Of a stretch of DNA of 64,000 nt, positions 50,806 through 60,940 are shown one piece after another. The position numbers and the translations under genes are program-made. The DNA comes from Halobacillus shinanisalinarum (lineage in GTDB: Bacteria > Bacillota > Bacilli > Bacillales > Halobacillaceae): NCBI RefSeq assembly GCF_022919835.1, contig NZ_CP095074.1:4194001-4258000 (forward strand), written 5' to 3'. Every line of letters begins with the position of its first letter. Position 1 is the stretch's first letter. The notes beneath the pieces were generated by a model, which did no database searches, was not told the origin of the DNA, and worked only from the letters and a program-made list of their open reading frames with translations.

Positions 50806-51096
50806 TTCCTATTCCCTCCAATTTAATCCCTTTAATAGATAATCCCTTTGGTCAAAATTCATTTGCGGCGTGTTGTTCTGGCATAACTTACAATTTCAAG
50901 ATGAACCATCTAATTACCTTCCTTACTTCACAATACGATCTGGCTGGTTTGTTAAATAAACTCTTTCTTATTTGTAGTTATATTAGTCTAGCAGGTATTC
51001 CCAAAACTATTAATATAGTCTTGAAATTACATGCAAGTTAAGGAATCTGACAAAGGCACATTTCATATATTGATGTATTTAAATGGTGAGGGTTAT

Positions 51097-51363
51097 ATGA
51101 ATGAGCTAACAGATCAGCCATTTACAACAGCTGAAAAATATCAAGAAAGTAAAGATGACTCCATGGTATCAACGGCTGGCCTTGATTTTAAGGGATTCTT
51201 GACTTGTATGGGTATAACGGGTATTGCCGCTAGTTTTATTTCTGGTGCATACGGTATTGCTTGCTATTTCACAGCAGGAGTTGGGTGTTTGGCTTGTTTA
51301 GCAGCTGTAGTAGGCTATGACATTGGAGCAGTTGGTGGTTGTGCGGTAGCAAACTGGAATTAA
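51097..51363 (+). CDS. Small Gly/Ala/Cys-rich peptide, candidate bacteriocin precursor
   Basis: An 88-residue protein from ATG 51097 (GGTGAGG upstream). Residues 1-32 are hydrophilic and leader-like (MNELTDQPFTTAEKYQESKD). From about 33 the chain is hydrophobic and rich in Gly, Ala and Cys: FLTCMGITGIAASFISGAYG, then IACYFTAGVGCLACLAAVVG and a GGCAVANWN tail, with five Cys. This layout resembles halocin-C8-like or other membrane-active bacteriocins. No modification or export gene is adjacent, so the call is by composition only. Alternative: a small membrane protein. Confidence 0.5.
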   Translation: MNELTDQPFTTAEKYQESKDDSMVSTAGLDFKGFLTCMGITGIAASFISGAYGIACYFTAGVGCLACLAAVVGYDIGAVGGCAVANWN

Positions 51364-54242: not shown

Positions 54243-54272
54243 TTGCCAACAACTAGTGGTAAGTATTATACT
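54243..54272 (+). promoter_or_regulatory. Promoter of the HTH-PsuK-like gene
   Basis: TTGCCA (54243-54248) and TATACT (54267-54272), 18-bp spacer. It lies inside a longer open frame and thereby supports the translation start at 54318. Confidence 0.6.
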
Positions 54273-54317: not shown

Positions 54318-55412
54318 ATGGTCAAGGATCAGCAAATTTTGGCTTTAATTAGAGAAAATCCATTTATTTCTCAGCAAGAATTATCAAAAAAACTTGGCCT
54401 TTCCAGATCAGCGGTGGCCGGATATATATCCACTTTAACGAAAAAAGGGGAAATCGTTGGCCGCGCATACATAGTAAAAGAAGAATCACGCATCACTTGT
54501 ATTGGTGGAGCAAATATAGATCGGAAGTCACAAACGATGAAGCCGATCCAATATGGCACTTCCAACCCTGCATCCGTTAAACAGTCCAGCGGAGGGATAT
54601 CCCGGAATGTGGCAGAGAATCTGGGCAGGCTAGGATGCGAAGCCTCATTAATTACTCTAATCGGTGATGACCAGGAAGGAAAATGGCTGTTGGAGGAAAC
54701 TAAGCGCTACGGAGTAGATGTGAGCCAATGCTTGGCAATGAACAAGGAAAAGACGGGAAGTTATACATCTATTTTTAGTGATACGGGTGAGATGATCCTG
54801 GCTGTAGCTGATATGCAAATTTATGACGAGTTCAGCATTGAATTCATGGAAGCACGTTGGTCGCATATAGCATCATCTCATATCATATTCGCCGATTCTA
54901 ATCTGCCAGAAGACTCCCTGGATTATCTCATTGGAAGGTGTGAAAAAGAGCAGCTAACCTTATGTGTTAACCCTGTTTCAGCACCAAAAGCGAGAAGGCT
55001 CCCATCTAATTTACATGGTGTAGATCTACTGATTGCGAATCGTGATGAAGCGTCGGCAGTGTCGGGAACGGAGATTGTAACAGTTGAAGACTGCAAACAA
55101 GCATCCGAGCTAATCACACAAAGAGGTGTAAATCAGGTTATGATCACAATGGGCAAACAGGGAGTATTGTGGACAGCTCATGATGGAAGACAGGAGCATC
55201 TTCTTCCATTACAGACTGATATTCTAGATAGCACAGGAGTAGAGGAATCCTTAGTAAGCGGCATTTTATTCGGCTTGAGTCATGGTGATTCTTTTGAACA
55301 GGCTGTACGTTTGGGGATGGCAGCGTCAGCTATCACATGGCAAACATCGGAGACAAATGCTGATTTGACAGCAGATCAACTTTATTCACTTGTTGAGAAA
55401 TGTTTTGAATAA
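54318..55412 (+). CDS. Winged-helix regulator fused to a degenerate PfkB/PsuK domain
   Basis: A 364-residue two-domain protein. Residues ~3-55 are a winged helix (LIRENPFISQQELSKKLGLS with RSAVAGYISTLTKKGEIV). Residues ~60-360 are PfkB fold, close to pseudouridine kinases ([27 protein letters not shown], the di-Gly substrate motif). The catalytic GAGD motif is replaced: D304-S-T-G-V-E-E310-S, so the base Asp is Glu and the anion-hole Gly is Glu. AGGGTGGGG precedes the ATG. The paralog at 56796 keeps GAGD. I infer a non-catalytic sensor-regulator of the cluster; reduced kinase activity cannot be excluded. Confidence 0.86.
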   Translation: MVKDQQILALIRENPFISQQELSKKLGLSRSAVAGYISTLTKKGEIVGRAYIVKEESRITCIGGANIDRKSQTMKPIQYGTSNPASVKQSSGGISRNVAENLGRLGCEASLITLIGDDQEGKWLLEETKRYGVDVSQCLAMNKEKTGSYTSIFSDTGEMILAVADMQIYDEFSIEFMEARWSHIASSHIIFADSNLPEDSLDYLIGRCEKEQLTLCVNPVSAPKARRLPSNLHGVDLLIANRDEASAVSGTEIVTVEDCKQASELITQRGVNQVMITMGKQGVLWTAHDGRQEHLLPLQTDILDSTGVEESLVSGILFGLSHGDSFEQAVRLGMAASAITWQTSETNADLTADQLYSLVEKCFE

Positions 55413-55431
55413 TTTAGAAAAGAATGAAGAA

Positions 55432-55478
55432 ACAGCCGATATTTCCTACTTCAAGGAAGTATCGGTTTTTTTGTCGTC
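55432..55478 (+). terminator. Terminator of the HTH-PsuK-like gene
   Basis: CCGATATTTCCT and AGGAAGTATCGG form the stem around ACTTCA, followed by seven T. The regulator gene is thus a separate transcript from the salvage genes. Confidence 0.9.
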
Positions 55479-55504
55479 CAGGAAATTATAAAAATATTTG
55501 CATG

Positions 55505-55660
55505 TGGATAAGCTTACATGAAGTTAGCCACATCCAGCTCCAGCACCCAGACACTCGAGACATAAGTCAATCGCCTTCGTGGAGAAACACCACTCCACTG
55601 CACCGCTTGTCTTATGCTTGTCGTGTCTACCGGGGCGCTTGCGCTTTTGTTCTGAGGAAA
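55505..55660. repeat. Bacillaceae-type dispersed repeat
   Basis: CATCCAGCTCCAGCACCCAG, ACACTCGAGACATAAGTCAA, CTTATGCTTGTCGTGTCTAC and GGGGCGCTTGCGCTTTTGTT mark a ~150-bp repeat of a kind I know from many Bacillus-group genomes (AGCTCCAGCGCC... with CGCTTGCGCTTTT). Inner segments such as GTGGAG / CTCCAC and GACATAAG / CTTATG pair. Only one copy is in this window. Confidence 0.7.
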
Positions 55661-55679
55661 AGATTATTTAGTATTTACT

Positions 55680-55713
55680 AACAATTGTCCTTATGGTAAA
55701 CTTTTGTTTTAAA
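55680..55713 (+). promoter_or_regulatory. Operator pair and promoter of the EamA gene
   Basis: AACAATTGTC (55680-55689) and AACTTTTGTT (55699-55708) start 19 bp apart. The identical spacing and closely related boxes occur at 56750/56769 before psuK. A possible promoter TTGTCC-N17-TTTAAA overlaps both boxes, which fits repression. Confidence 0.55.
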
Positions 55714-55801
55714 TTAAATTGAGATTTAAATAAAAAGACTACACATGACTTATGCTGGTAAAGTTACTGTCGATATCTAAGAAATGAAAGGGGAAAAATC
55801 A

Positions 55802-56713
55802 ATGAGAAAGGTCTACTTATATCCCTCGTTGGTAGTTATTGGAGCTTGTAGCTACGGTATAGTTTCAACCATTATAAAACTGGCCATGCGTGGGGGTTTT
55901 TCAGCCTCCCAAGCTGTCACAAGCCAGTTTGTTTTCGGATTTACTATAGCCGTTTGTATTTTTGTTATCCAAAAGAAAAAATTGAATGTACGTGATCTTA
56001 AAAATATTATTCCAGCAGGTATTCTAACAGGACTGACAAATATTTCGTATGGACTTTCATTAAATTATTTACCTGCTTCTTTGGCCGTCGTGCTCTTATT
56101 TCAATTTACGTGGATAGGTATGTTAATCTCATGCATTGCAAAACGGCAATTTCCGAGAAGGATAGAATATATCTCCCTATCTCTATTGTTTGTAGGAACC
56201 ATATCGGCAGCTGGTTTAGTTGGTGTCGATTTATCGACAATAGCGATTCAAGGTTGGTTGTGGGGATTGGTAGCAGCCCTTTGCTATTCCCTATTCTTAT
56301 TTTTTAATGGCAGATCAAATGCAAAGATGACAACTTCTAATCGTTTAGTATTGGTTTCTTTTTTTGCCTTTATAACAACGGTTGTCTTTCAGTCTCCACA
56401 AATAATTTGGGATGGGACACTGTTTGGTGAAGGGCTTTGGATCTATGGTTTAGCGTTGGGCTTATTCGGTATGGTTGTCCCGGTTTTCTTATTTAGTATT
56501 GCTATTCCAAAAGTTGGGTTAGGTACTTCATCCATACTGAGTGCAGTTGAATTGCCAATCGCAATGTTTGTATCCGTAATGTTGTTAAATGAAACGGTCT
56601 CTGTGCCCCAAATGATGGGTGTATTAATCATTATTGTGGGGATGTGTGCACCAACATTAAGTCAGAATATATTGTTGGGGAAAAGCAAAAAAAATGTGGT
56701 TCATGAAGTTTAA
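55802..56713 (+). CDS. EamA-family transporter
   Basis: A 303-residue drug/metabolite transporter (DMT) superfamily protein with ten predicted spans and two EamA repeats. It opens SLVVIGACSYGIVSTIIKLA; the first repeat ends LPASLAVVLLFQFTWIGMLI and the second VELPIAMFVSVMLLNETVSV. AAAGGGG before the ATG at 55802 sets the start. It lies between the regulator and psuK and carries the same operator pair as psuK, so it may export or import a nucleoside-related compound; the substrate is not known. Confidence 0.88.
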   Translation: MRKVYLYPSLVVIGACSYGIVSTIIKLAMRGGFSASQAVTSQFVFGFTIAVCIFVIQKKKLNVRDLKNIIPAGILTGLTNISYGLSLNYLPASLAVVLLFQFTWIGMLISCIAKRQFPRRIEYISLSLLFVGTISAAGLVGVDLSTIAIQGWLWGLVAALCYSLFLFFNGRSNAKMTTSNRLVLVSFFAFITTVVFQSPQIIWDGTLFGEGLWIYGLALGLFGMVVPVFLFSIAIPKVGLGTSSILSAVELPIAMFVSVMLLNETVSVPQMMGVLIIIVGMCAPTLSQNILLGKSKKNVVHEV

Positions 56714-56720
56714 GAGTTCA

Positions 56721-56778
56721 TTGACAAATAAAAATGTAAGCATATAATAAACATATGTTTAATTAATTAACATTTGTT
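56721..56778 (+). promoter_or_regulatory. Promoter and paired operator of the psuK-psuG operon
   Basis: Consensus TTGACA (56721-56726) and TATAAT (56743-56748), 16-bp spacer. Immediately downstream, AACATATGTT (56750-56759) and AACATTTGTT (56769-56778) are near-palindromes 19 bp apart, separated by TAATTAATT. The site covers the transcription start and should block it when bound. The same pair arrangement precedes the EamA gene. Confidence 0.75.
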
Positions 56779-56795: not shown

Positions 56796-57770
56796 TTGAC
56801 TACCGTTTTAAATGAGGAAAATCAAAAATCCCCTATTATTTGTATAGGGGGAGTGAACGTTGACAAAAAATTATATGCCAAAAATGAAATTGTCAGCAAA
56901 ACTTCTAATCCAGTAAAATCCTCCCAGACGGTTGGTGGAGTAGCAAGAAATATCGCTGAAAACTTAGGTCGATTAGGCGAAGAAGTGATAATGCTTTCAG
57001 TAAGAGGCAATGATTCAGACTGGCTGGATATAGACCAGTTATCCTCGCCTTTTATGAATCTAGACTATGTCGCTAAGATTGAGAACTCATCGACAGGTTC
57101 GTACACAGCTGTTTTAGATAAAAACGGTGATTTATCTATTGCTTTAGCGGATATGGACATTTTTGATCATCTTACACCTGAGCTTCTTTCGAAAAATATC
57201 GATATTCTTATCAAAGCTAAATGTATTGTACTGGACTTGAATTGTCCAAGTGAAACAGTTGATTTTCTTTGTTCCTTTGCATCTAAACATCATATTCCTT
57301 TAGTCATTATCCCTGTTTCGACTCCTAAAATGAATCGGCTTCCAAAAGATTTGAGTGGAGTAAATTGGCTCATTGTAAATAAGAGTGAAACGGAAGCTTT
57401 TATGAATATTACGATTGATGATAAGGAAGATCGGAAAGACCCAGTTAAGAAGTGGTTAGAGTTAGGAGTGCAAAACGTTATTGTAACTGATGGATCAAAC
57501 GGTGTCATTGCAGGTGGGGCAAATGGAGAGATTCATAGCTACCGAGCTATTGAAACACCTGAAGTTGTTGATGTTACAGGCGCAGGAGATTCATTTTGTT
57601 CAGGAGTTATTTATTCCTGGTTACAAAGAGGAGAATTAGATCACATTATAAAATCTGGTTTGGTTAACGCACATAAAACCATTCTGTCAAAATCTACCGT
57701 TAGACAAGAATTATCCCCAAAACAATTTGAATTAGATATGGAGGAATTTTCAAATGAAACAATATATTGA
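56796..57770 (+). CDS. psuK: Pseudouridine kinase (PfkB family)
   Basis: Phosphorylates pseudouridine to its 5'-phosphate; 324 residues. TTG at 56796 follows GGGGGGTG and is preferred over the TTG at 56778. [11 protein letters not shown] and [20 protein letters not shown] form the sugar-binding N-terminal part, and [17 protein letters not shown] carries the intact GAGD with catalytic Asp265. Overlaps psuG by 17 bases. The combination with psuG gives the functional name; alone it would be only a PfkB kinase. Confidence 0.9.
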
Positions 57771-58671
57771 ATTATCTAAAGAGGTACAACAGGCAAAAGA
57801 AGAAGGGAAAGCTATTGTTGCTTTAGAATCTACAATTATTTCTCATGGTATGCCTTACCCGCAAAACATAAAAATGGCTCGTGAGATTGAACAAATTGTT
57901 CGTGACAACGGTGCTGTCCCAGCGACCATTGCGATCATGGACGGAAAAATTAAAATTGGTTTAACAGATGATGAATTGGAGTTATTCGGTAATAGTTCAG
58001 ATGTTGCGAAAGTATCAAGACGTGATTTAGCTCAAATTGTTGCTACTAAAAAACTAGGGGCGACGACTGTTGCTACAACTATGATTTGTGCTGAGTTAGC
58101 AGACATCAAGGTCTTTGTAACAGGTGGTATCGGCGGCGTTCATAGAGGGGCAGAAACAACGATGGATATCTCAGCTGACCTTGAAGAATTAGCTCAAACA
58201 GATGTAGCGGTTGTTTGTGCAGGGGCCAAGTCAATCCTGGATCTAGCGCTTACTCTTGAATACCTTGAAACAAAGGGAGTTCCAGTTATTGGTTATGAAA
58301 CGGAAGTTCTACCGGCTTTCTTCACGAGAACAAGTGAACATCAATTACACTCTTCTACTGATTCAGTTGATGTGATTGCTGAAACATTGAAGACTAAATG
58401 GGACTTAAATCTTAAGGGTGGAGCCGTCATCGCTAATCCAATCCCTGAAGAACATGCTATGGACGAAGACTATATCAATGGAATTATCAATCAGGCGATT
58501 AAAGAAGCAGAAGAAAATCATATTTTAGGTAAAGATAGTACACCATTCTTGCTTGGTAAAATTACAGAATTAACAGATGGTAAAAGCCTTGATGCCAATA
58601 TAGAATTAGTCAAGCACAATGCTAAAGTAGGAACCCAGATCGCAGTTAGTTTCAATAACCAAGTTAAGTAA
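57754..58671 (+). CDS. psuG: Pseudouridine-5'-phosphate glycosidase
   Basis: Cleaves (reversibly) the C-glycosidic bond of pseudouridine 5'-phosphate to uracil and ribose 5-phosphate; 305 residues. The family blocks are all present: [77 protein letters not shown] and [15 protein letters not shown]. The Mn site and the catalytic Lys fall in these blocks. GGAGG inside psuK serves as its ribosome site. Confidence 0.97.
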
Positions 58672-58805: not shown

Positions 58806-59987
58806 ATGAATATTATTTTCTTACTAACAGGGATTTTGCTAGCCTTTGTTATTGCTTTTTTATTTAGTAATAATAGAAAGGAAATTAAATATAAGCGTAT
58901 TCTGACTATGCTAGCTGTTCAACTCATTTTAGTTTATTTCATGATGAATACTAGTATAGGTTTAGAGGTTATTTCCAGTGTGGGTGTGTTTTTTGAAAAG
59001 TTAATGAAGATTGCCGATTCAGGCATTCAATTTGTATTCGGTGGATTGGTGAATGAAGGGGCGACAACGTTTTTCATCGGAGTGTTATTACCGCTTGTTT
59101 TCATATCCGTATTAATAGGAATCCTTAATTATATTAAAGTATTGCCTTTTATCATTAAATATACAGGCTTATTTTTAAGTAAAATAACAGGAATGGGAAA
59201 ACTGGAAAGCTATTTTGCGGTCTCCACAGCTACTTTTGGACAACCCGAAGTGTTCTTAACTATTATCAAACAAATTCCTTTATTACCTCCAAAAAGACTT
59301 TACACCATTTGTACATCAGCCATGAGTGCAGTAAGTATGGCGATGGTTGGGGCCTATATGACCATGCTAGAGCCAAAATACGTTGTAACAGCTGTTGTAT
59401 TGAATATTTTTAGTGCACTTATCGTAGCTAATATTATTAATCCATACGATTTGGAGGATCATGATGATTTAATTGAGGTTGAGGAAGATGAAAGAGTTCC
59501 ATTTTTTCAAATGGTCGGGGACAGCGTTATGGATGGATTTAAAATTGTGATTACCGTTGCTGCTATGCTCTTGGGATTTATTGCTTTGATGGAATTGATT
59601 AATGTTATTTTTCTAGGTATATTCCAAGTTTCTTTCCAAACGATTATTGGCTATATTTTCGCGCCTATTGCTTTCCTAATGGGTGTTCCATGGGCGGAAG
59701 CTGTACAAGCAGGTGGAATCATGGCAACCAAACTTGTTACGAATGAGTTTGTAGCCATGTTAAGCTTTGGTGAAATTGCAAATAATCTTTCTGAGAAAAC
59801 TGTAGCTATTGTGTCCGTTTATTTAGTTAGTTTTGCAAACTTTGGTACGGTGGGGATTGTTTCTGGTTCAATCAGATCAATCAGTGAAAAACAAGGTAAT
59901 TATGTTTCGAAATTTGCTTTAAAACTATTATTAGGTGCCACACTAGCTTCGGTCATTTCCGGTACAATGATCGGTTTAGTCATTTAG
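58806..59987 (+). CDS. NupC-type concentrative nucleoside transporter
   Basis: A 393-residue CNT family cation-coupled nucleoside importer. N-terminal spans (IIFLLTGILLAFVIAFLF ...), GIQFVFGGLVNEGATTFFIG, the gate domain with ISVLIGILNYIKVLPFIIKY, and the motifs FGQPEVFLTIIKQIP, MSAVSMAMVGAYMTML, GVPWAEAVQAGGIMATKLVT NEF and VSFANFGTVGIVSGSI are the expected blocks. Placed after psuG, it probably brings in pseudouridine and other nucleosides. GGGGAGGGG precedes the ATG. Confidence 0.93.
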   Translation: MNIIFLLTGILLAFVIAFLFSNNRKEIKYKRILTMLAVQLILVYFMMNTSIGLEVISSVGVFFEKLMKIADSGIQFVFGGLVNEGATTFFIGVLLPLVFISVLIGILNYIKVLPFIIKYTGLFLSKITGMGKLESYFAVSTATFGQPEVFLTIIKQIPLLPPKRLYTICTSAMSAVSMAMVGAYMTMLEPKYVVTAVVLNIFSALIVANIINPYDLEDHDDLIEVEEDERVPFFQMVGDSVMDGFKIVITVAAMLLGFIALMELINVIFLGIFQVSFQTIIGYIFAPIAFLMGVPWAEAVQAGGIMATKLVTNEFVAMLSFGEIANNLSEKTVAIVSVYLVSFANFGTVGIVSGSIRSISEKQGNYVSKFALKLLLGATLASVISGTMIGLVI

Positions 59988-60010
59988 TTTTAATAGAGAG
60001 GTGGATGGTG

Positions 60011-60940
60011 ATGAATACTAGAAAAATTATTATGGATTGTGATCCAGGACATGATGATGCTATTGCGATGATTTTAGCTGCTGTACAACCAGATTTAGAG
60101 ATTTTGGGGATCACAACCGTTTCTGGAAATGCAGAAATTGAAAAAACGACGATGAATGCATTAAAGGTCTGTGATTTAGTTTCATTAACTGATGTCGTTG
60201 TTTCAAAAGGGGCGAGTGAGCCTTTGGTTCGAATACGAGAAACAGCACCTGGTATTCACGGGGACTCAGGTTTGGATGGTCCAGAGATGCCTGAACCTTC
60301 TCGCAGCTGGAGTAAGGAACATGGTTCTGATACCATCATCAGACTTTTAAAAGAGTCTGATGAGCCAGTGACCATTCTTCCAACAGGCCCTTTGACAAAT
60401 ATTGCTTTAGCTTTAACAAAAGCACCAGAAATTAAAGATAACATTGAAGAGATTGTCCTTATGGGTGGCGGAACATTTGGTAACTGGACGCCAACAGCTG
60501 AATTTAATATTTGGGCTGATCCGGAAGCGGCCAAAAAGGTCTTTGACAGCGGTATTCCAACAGTAGTTATGGGTTTAGATATCACACATCAAGCCCAAGC
60601 AACCGAAGAGGTTATCGATCAAGTGAATAAAATTGATAATCACGTCGCTAAAATAGTTGGTGAGTTATTAGCATTTTTCAGATCAACCTATAAAGAAATG
60701 TTTGATTTTGACGGAGCACCCGTACACGATGTATTGACTGTAGCCTATTGTGTGGCACCAGAATTGTTTGAGACGAAAGATGTCAATATTGCGGTGGAAA
60801 CGAAAGGGGAGTTTACTGCAGGAACAACCCTAATTGATTTACATGGGGTCACGGGAAGAAAGGTCAATGCTAAGTTTGGAATAGGCCTTGATGTAGAAGG
60901 TTTTTGGAAACTCATGATGAAAGCTCTTAAGAAATACTAA
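60011..60940 (+). CDS. Nucleoside hydrolase (Rih/IUNH family)
   Basis: A 309-residue calcium-dependent N-ribosyl hydrolase that cleaves nucleosides to base and ribose. The N-terminal Ca site is DCDPGHDDAIAMILAA. LEILGITTVSGNAEIEKTT, VLMGGGTFGNWTPTAEFNIW ADPEAA and PVHDVLTVAYCVAPELF follow, with the catalytic-site His in VHD. Two near ATGs exist; 60011 has AGAGGTGG at good spacing. Together with the transporter it would widen the cluster to ordinary (N-linked) nucleosides. Confidence 0.95.
   Translation: MNTRKIIMDCDPGHDDAIAMILAAVQPDLEILGITTVSGNAEIEKTTMNALKVCDLVSLTDVVVSKGASEPLVRIRETAPGIHGDSGLDGPEMPEPSRSWSKEHGSDTIIRLLKESDEPVTILPTGPLTNIALALTKAPEIKDNIEEIVLMGGGTFGNWTPTAEFNIWADPEAAKKVFDSGIPTVVMGLDITHQAQATEEVIDQVNKIDNHVAKIVGELLAFFRSTYKEMFDFDGAPVHDVLTVAYCVAPELFETKDVNIAVETKGEFTAGTTLIDLHGVTGRKVNAKFGIGLDVEGFWKLMMKALKKY

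Follow-up and report, generated by a model that had tools for sequence, protein, structure and literature searches.

A winged-helix PfkB protein with a degenerate catalytic motif, a putative pseudouridine-responsive repressor in Halobacillus shinanisalinarum

The psuK-psuG locus and its putative regulator

Pseudouridine is a building block that is set free from decaying RNA and is phosphorylated by the kinase PsuK. The stretch of Halobacillus shinanisalinarum DNA analyzed here (the window, 64,000 nucleotides, positions 4,194,001 to 4,258,000 of contig NZ_CP095074.1) contains genes for pseudouridine breakdown and, upstream of them, a gene (54318..55412, + strand, like all features written with two dots below) coding for a protein of 364 amino acids, here called R, in which a winged helix-turn-helix (HTH) is fused to a PsuK-like domain of the PfkB family. 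The DNA-binding domain covers residues 1-52 (54318..54473; HTH_24, 4.6e-12), and Pfam places HTH_24 at residues 3-44 and PfkB (PF00294, 156.4 bits against a cut-off of 25.8) at residues 58-350, while a comparison of folds matches R to PsuK and to ribokinases. The di-Gly ribose-binding motif, part of the retained pseudouridine pocket, is present (G92-G93, 54591..54596, by alignment), but the catalytic motif, GAGD in active kinases, reads GVEE (residues 307-310, 55236..55247 by counting), and the equivalent of the catalytic Asp256 of PsuK is Glu310. R scores below the NCBIfam equivalog cut-offs of both PsuK (PRK09850, 189.9 against 540 bits) and the HTH-PfkB proteins (PRK09954, 203 against 561 bits), with an architecture like that of the latter.

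The gene next but one to R codes for a stand-alone PsuK without HTH (56796..57770; Pfam and alignment) that keeps GAGD and all 12 of the pseudouridine contact residues mapped here from PMC9247573. It overlaps psuG (57754..58671), which codes for a pseudouridine-5'-phosphate glycosidase (Indigoidine_A, by Pfam) and is the sole copy in the genome (E ≤ 1e-20). A preliminary description, made from the letters of the same DNA, had already reported the winged helix, the PsuK-like domain, the di-Gly, the change of GAGD to GVEE and the intact paralog two genes away, and the Pfam domains and alignments agree with it on each of them. An EamA-family transporter gene (55784..56713; Pfam) lies between R and PsuK, and psuG is followed by genes for a NupC-type concentrative nucleoside transporter (58806..59987) and an inosine-uridine preferring nucleoside hydrolase (60005..60940), both identified by profile searches. 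Two tandem palindromes are found between these genes: putative operator 1 (AACAATTGTC-N9-AACTTTTGTT, 55680..55708, a motif match), upstream of EamA, and putative operator 2 (AACATATGTT-N9-AACATTTGTT, 56750..56778), 1 bp from the -10 box of the promoter-like site of psuK-psuG (TTGACA-16-TATAAT, 56721..56748), which matches at 12/12 positions and is the sole one of that grade in the region.

Loss of the catalytic motif among homologs

Among the best 120 of 2780 matches, R itself included, GAGD is kept in 95, and the other proteins read GVEE (7), GAGE (6), GVKE (4), GADD (2) or GGEE, GVDE, GLEE, GVGE and GSGD (1 each), one more being truncated at this position. A tree of 95 PfkB domains was built by a quick method with the motif columns excluded and with support from the Shimodaira-Hasegawa-like approximate likelihood-ratio test (SH-aLRT) only. 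In this tree R belongs to a clade of 18 rows (clade A, support 97), none of which has GAGD, so that GVEE is not the lone substitution among GAGD orthologs that the preliminary description had set against its own proposal. A lone mutation or sequencing error in R was likewise considered and ruled out, the loss being common to clade A in several genera, with GVKE in the Salimicrobium members. The sister pair of clade A, P0011 and P0012, keeps GAGD (support 99). Clade B, which lies far from clade A (13 rows, support 100), contains GAGE, GADD and GVGE together with two GAGD proteins, and a third HTH-PfkB lineage (loci L215 and L216) reads GNRD. At least three lineages thus have a changed motif, in most cases at a locus that also holds a second PsuK. 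The distribution of the regulator is patchy, and R is absent from all 10 other genomes of the genus that were searched (E ≤ 1e-60).

Conservation was counted over 14 clade A proteins. Ten of the 12 pseudouridine contacts are invariant (V42 is replaced by I in nine proteins and V166 by A in one), the base contacts N143, S167 and K170 and the di-Gly G92-G93 being present in all 14. All 20 family-conserved positions of the HTH are kept, but only 8/20 of the conserved positions of the C-terminal half; the Gly of the GAGD loop is changed in 14/14 and that of the adenosine triphosphate (ATP) loop in 11/14. Divergence of the ATP-side half is greater than in the comparison sets, with a raised nonsynonymous rate (dN) in the C-terminal half, while the ratio to the synonymous rate (dN/dS), calculated from means, is about 0.03 in the HTH and about 0.05 in the pocket half. 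These patterns indicate that the pocket and the HTH are under strong constraint in a clade from which the catalytic motif is gone. The lost catalytic residues could also mark a decaying, functionless gene; this has a virtually negligible probability, because the substitution pattern speaks against it, as do the reading frame, open in the clade A loci read, and the conserved operators described below.

Glu stands at the catalytic position in all 14 proteins and for that reason seems to have a role; the equivalent of E190 is likewise kept (14/14). R might accordingly be a still active or weakly active kinase with Glu as base, that is, a bifunctional regulator-kinase, but the altered loops, the poorly kept C-terminal half with its raised dN and the complete PsuK two genes away make this very improbable. 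The metal-site residue D164 of PsuK was dropped as a second mark of lost catalysis, because Asp is found there in just 58/95 GAGD proteins and Ile in the active-looking PsuK of the window.

The tandem operator

The operator pattern, AACWWWTGTY-N9-AACWWWTGTT, was derived by reading intergenic regions. In the 4.89-Mb genome it matches exactly just at 55680-55708 and 56750-56778, with no further match at one mismatch and three at two; the reversed pattern, run as control, is found six times when two mismatches are allowed and never exactly, and chance would give 0.01 matches in the window with one mismatch allowed. The two sites that the preliminary description had singled out, at 55680 and 56750, are therefore both exact matches, unique in the genome, and they are conserved in relatives. 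In clade A, the operator is exact upstream of EamA in 5/5 loci and is found upstream of PsuK in 10/11 if one mismatch is allowed; in the eleventh locus, L020, the open reading frame (ORF) call is over-long and the site is present. In clade B it precedes PsuK in 6/6 loci (up to one mismatch) and the regulator in 4/6 (up to two). Upstream of the other HTH-PfkB genes (100, with psuG in the locus of 97) it is found in 87 at up to two mismatches, 36 of them exact, and several of the 13 misses (L026, L031, L087, L097) are over-long ORF calls in which the site was found. Among the controls, psuG upstream regions have none (0/97 at up to three mismatches) and background windows have 4/1436 at up to two, all four next to the HTH-PfkB gene in short loci.

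Across 397 genomes of the order, 35 contain an exact operator: 28/64 of those with an HTH-PfkB match (E ≤ 1e-75) against 7/333 of those without (Fisher p 5e-19), while the reversed pattern, present in nine genomes, has no association with HTH-PfkB (p 0.64). The 28 genomes gave 30 listed sites, and 23 of these are no more than 302 bp away from the HTH-PfkB match, on one side or the other. In six of the seven exceptions a weaker HTH-PfkB is present, its match starting 15-53 bp from the site, with the site upstream, and the seventh, G158, has no HTH-PfkB match at E ≤ 1e-25. Exact operators away from any HTH-PfkB seen are those at G158:C6:63671-63699 and at G035:C5:24023-24051, the latter an additional site in a genome resembling Salimicrobium.

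Comparative evidence thus points to specific operators at the promoters of the predicted target genes, as expected of a ligand-responsive repressor. The sign of control is unreadable from sequence and operator 1 overlaps, by eye, the spacer of a promoter-like site, so that R could activate instead of repressing, or work with another factor; operator 2, however, begins just after the 12/12 promoter, a place at which bound proteins as a rule prevent transcription, and this alternative has an extremely small chance of being correct.

The second PsuK at the locus

Where no second PsuK is present, an HTH-PfkB gene with GAGD mostly lies directly before psuG. Each of the 11 distinct loci of clade A has, as its second gene, an HTH-less PsuK joined to psuG (in L020 after setting the over-long ORF call aside), with EamA between regulator and PsuK in five (window, L018, L019, L020, L023) and the transporter and hydrolase after psuG in six (the same five and L177); in the four Salimicrobium loci of this clade PsuK-psuG lies about 5 to 9 kb from the regulator. 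Clade B contains intermediates: both copies are intact in L179 and L195, the regulator reads GAGE and the second copy still has its HTH in L145, L146 and L193, and in L180 the regulator reads GADD and the HTH of the second copy is gone. The weakening of this HTH can be followed in Pfam scores (HTH_24, 23.5 bits in L145:8193-9299 against 36.3 in L179) up to its loss in L180:5936-6937 and in window 56796-57770, and mirrors the catalytic loss of the regulator.

Counted over distinct regulator genes, leaving out L149 (a duplicate of the window), L148 (no regulator) and L022 (same genome as L147), GAGD is missing in 15/17 regulators with a PsuK partner against 4/102 without, and the Asp itself is lost in 14/17 against 0/102. 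The PsuK partners fall into a single, distant clade (17 rows, support 100) and the regulators come from two, which argues that one cassette met different regulators. Plain tandem duplication of one gene within the locus was ruled out by the tree, in which the regulators belong to two far-apart HTH-PfkB clades.

The GNRD proteins (L215:6653-7891, L216:7131-8252) have changes in the pocket (N66T, M166L, K224R and G279R, in window positions), and psuG is not present in the fetched stretches. Both loci have an exact operator (L215:13578-13606, L216:14024-14052) ahead of an ABC permease ORF, named by eye, at distances of 21 and 11 bp from its first start codon, and this lineage probably consists of dedicated regulators with another ligand.

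Proposed function and its weighing

R probably acts as a switch for the adjoining pseudouridine-breakdown genes, because the catalytic residue has been lost but the pocket and the DNA-binding head have been kept. It is likely to be a pseudokinase transcription factor, a dedicated pseudouridine-responsive repressor derived from a bifunctional repressor-kinase. R is predicted to dimerize, as PsuK does, by way of the PfkB beta-thumb, setting the winged helices on the tandem palindromes; since the operators overlap or directly follow the promoters of EamA and of psuK-psuG-(transporter-hydrolase), bound R would block RNA polymerase. Binding of pseudouridine in the intact pocket would then change the conformation of R and free the operators, and the separate PsuK and PsuG would degrade the nucleoside, R itself presumably having no kinase activity. 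The idea put forward in the preliminary description, a kinase fold turned into a pseudouridine sensor that controls transcription, is supported by the preserved pocket and HTH, the diverged ATP half and the conserved operators.

The ordinary HTH-PfkB protein, in turn, looks like an autoregulated repressor and kinase, and the ancestor of R would have been of this kind, phosphorylating pseudouridine and repressing its own psuG operon. A second PsuK at the same locus would have made catalysis by the regulator redundant, leading to its loss, while the second PsuK lost its own HTH. This autoregulated bifunctional ancestor goes beyond the preliminary description, as does a family-wide picture, to which a little better than an even chance is given, in which HTH-PfkB proteins are autoregulated repressor-kinases that sense free pseudouridine on tandem AACWWWTGTT palindromes. 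Enzyme and switch would have been split repeatedly, with a like PsuK as the partner in both clade A (GVEE/GVKE) and clade B (GAGE/GADD), and the GNRD lineage would have turned to a different ligand and to the operon of an ABC transporter. Under that picture, bacteria would gauge RNA turnover by a modified nucleoside.

A dedicated repressor on the same operators could instead respond to pseudouridine 5'-phosphate, uridine or ribose, as the nucleoside transporter and nucleoside hydrolase of the locus might suggest, together with the GVKE variants, which could bind phosphate, and the GNRD lineage, whose altered pocket and operator before an ABC-transporter operon indicate that ligands can change. 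Such a ligand is unlikely for R, given that the three base contacts are invariant in clade A and that, in most members, the acidic VEE in place of the GAG loop should make phosphate binding unfavourable.

Several points weigh against R as a dedicated pseudouridine-responsive repressor that arose by this route. L179 and L195 have HTH-PfkB regulators with a PsuK partner and yet keep GAGD, and by independent pairs the partner effect gives a sign-test median p of 1 (two pairs on the tree), an association that cannot reach significance because the tree holds just two independent partner origins. The C-terminal half is also less conserved in a 60-protein GAGD set (identity 0.66 to 0.56, against 0.74 to 0.54 in clade A), and the contrast is therefore one of degree; in the substitution-rate comparison dS is near saturation. 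The Glu that replaces Asp might, in principle, retain a role as base, and the Lys of GVKE in Salimicrobium might bind phosphate, hinting at a phosphorylated ligand. The R genes of clade A have no operator of their own (0/11 at up to three mismatches), and upstream of EamA in clade B it is found in just 1/4 loci (up to two mismatches). The pattern itself was written after reading the sites of the window and of other clade A and clade B loci, for which reason the remaining loci are the cleaner test.

Relation to known systems

Compared with Escherichia coli PsuK, also of the PfkB family, R alone has an N-terminal winged helix and is without the catalytic Asp and Gly loop. With the ordinary HTH-PfkB fusions found before psuG, which are PRK09954-like and annotated as carbohydrate kinase, pseudouridine kinase or winged-HTH regulator, it shares domain order, HTH, pocket and operator motif. 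Those proteins, however, keep GAGD, lie directly before psuG and mostly have their own operator upstream, whereas R has lost GAGD, lacks an operator of its own and has a separate PsuK alongside.

In ROK repressors (NagC, Mlc, XylR) an N-terminal winged helix is followed by a sugar-kinase fold, unrelated to that of R, which serves to sense the ligand. The parallel drawn with them in the preliminary description holds as an analogy, as a precedent for the principle, but not as kinship, the ROK family being absent among the 10 Pfam matches of R (E ≤ 0.001). In yeast, Gal3 works via Gal80 and not on DNA, and the kinase superfamily of GAL1/GAL3 differs from PfkB, as does the kinase fold of the archaeal RbkR. 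The closest precedent for the evolutionary route, eukaryotic while R is bacterial, is nevertheless GAL1/GAL3, in which a bifunctional kinase-regulator gave rise to a separate kinase and a regulator without catalysis (PMC5089864). RbkR, a bifunctional riboflavin kinase-regulator, resembles R in joining an HTH to a small-molecule kinase and differs from it in being still an enzyme (PMC8305020). Among the open-licence titles and abstracts listed in the searches made, in one case 15 of 1,511, none dealt with a regulator for the breakdown of pseudouridine in bacteria or with a repressor of PfkB fold, and a word search in a Bifidobacterium regulon paper found no PfkB regulator named.

If the proposal is correct, the PfkB superfamily would gain a counterpart to the ROK repressors, and a sensor would be named for a modified nucleoside released from RNA. 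The loci would then form a graded natural series (both copies intact; Asp changed to Glu in the regulator; second copy without HTH; full split) allowing a GAL1/GAL3-type division of a bifunctional enzyme-regulator to be tested in bacteria, and the operator motif makes the HTH-PfkB family directly testable.

Other features

A promoter-like site precedes the R gene (TTGCCA-18-TATACT, 54243..54272, 10/12 matches), although sites of this grade are about as frequent in the scanned region as expected (9 found against 8.8); no tandem operator lies near it, the best match upstream of R having six mismatches. An intrinsic-terminator-like hairpin lies 3' of the gene (55434..55467; 3 found in the scanned region against 2.2 by chance), and the ORF at 55424-55681 has no match in the Pfam scan. 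The psuK promoter of the window has no match to a cre-like (catabolite site) consensus, to which some relatives look closer. The product of the EamA gene (55784-56713), preceded by the operator in all five clade A loci that hold it, is a candidate transporter of pseudouridine, uracil or ribose.

HTH-PfkB proteins with GAGD are also encoded at L068:7968-9086 and L080:7992-9086, with no psuG in the fetched locus and, in L080, following a symporter-like gene (by eye); both genomes also have a GAGE paralog at the psuG locus. Upstream of R the window has an ORF of 110 amino acids (51031-51363) whose C-terminal half is hydrophobic and rich in Gly and Ala; by eye, this ORF is reminiscent of a bacteriocin precursor.
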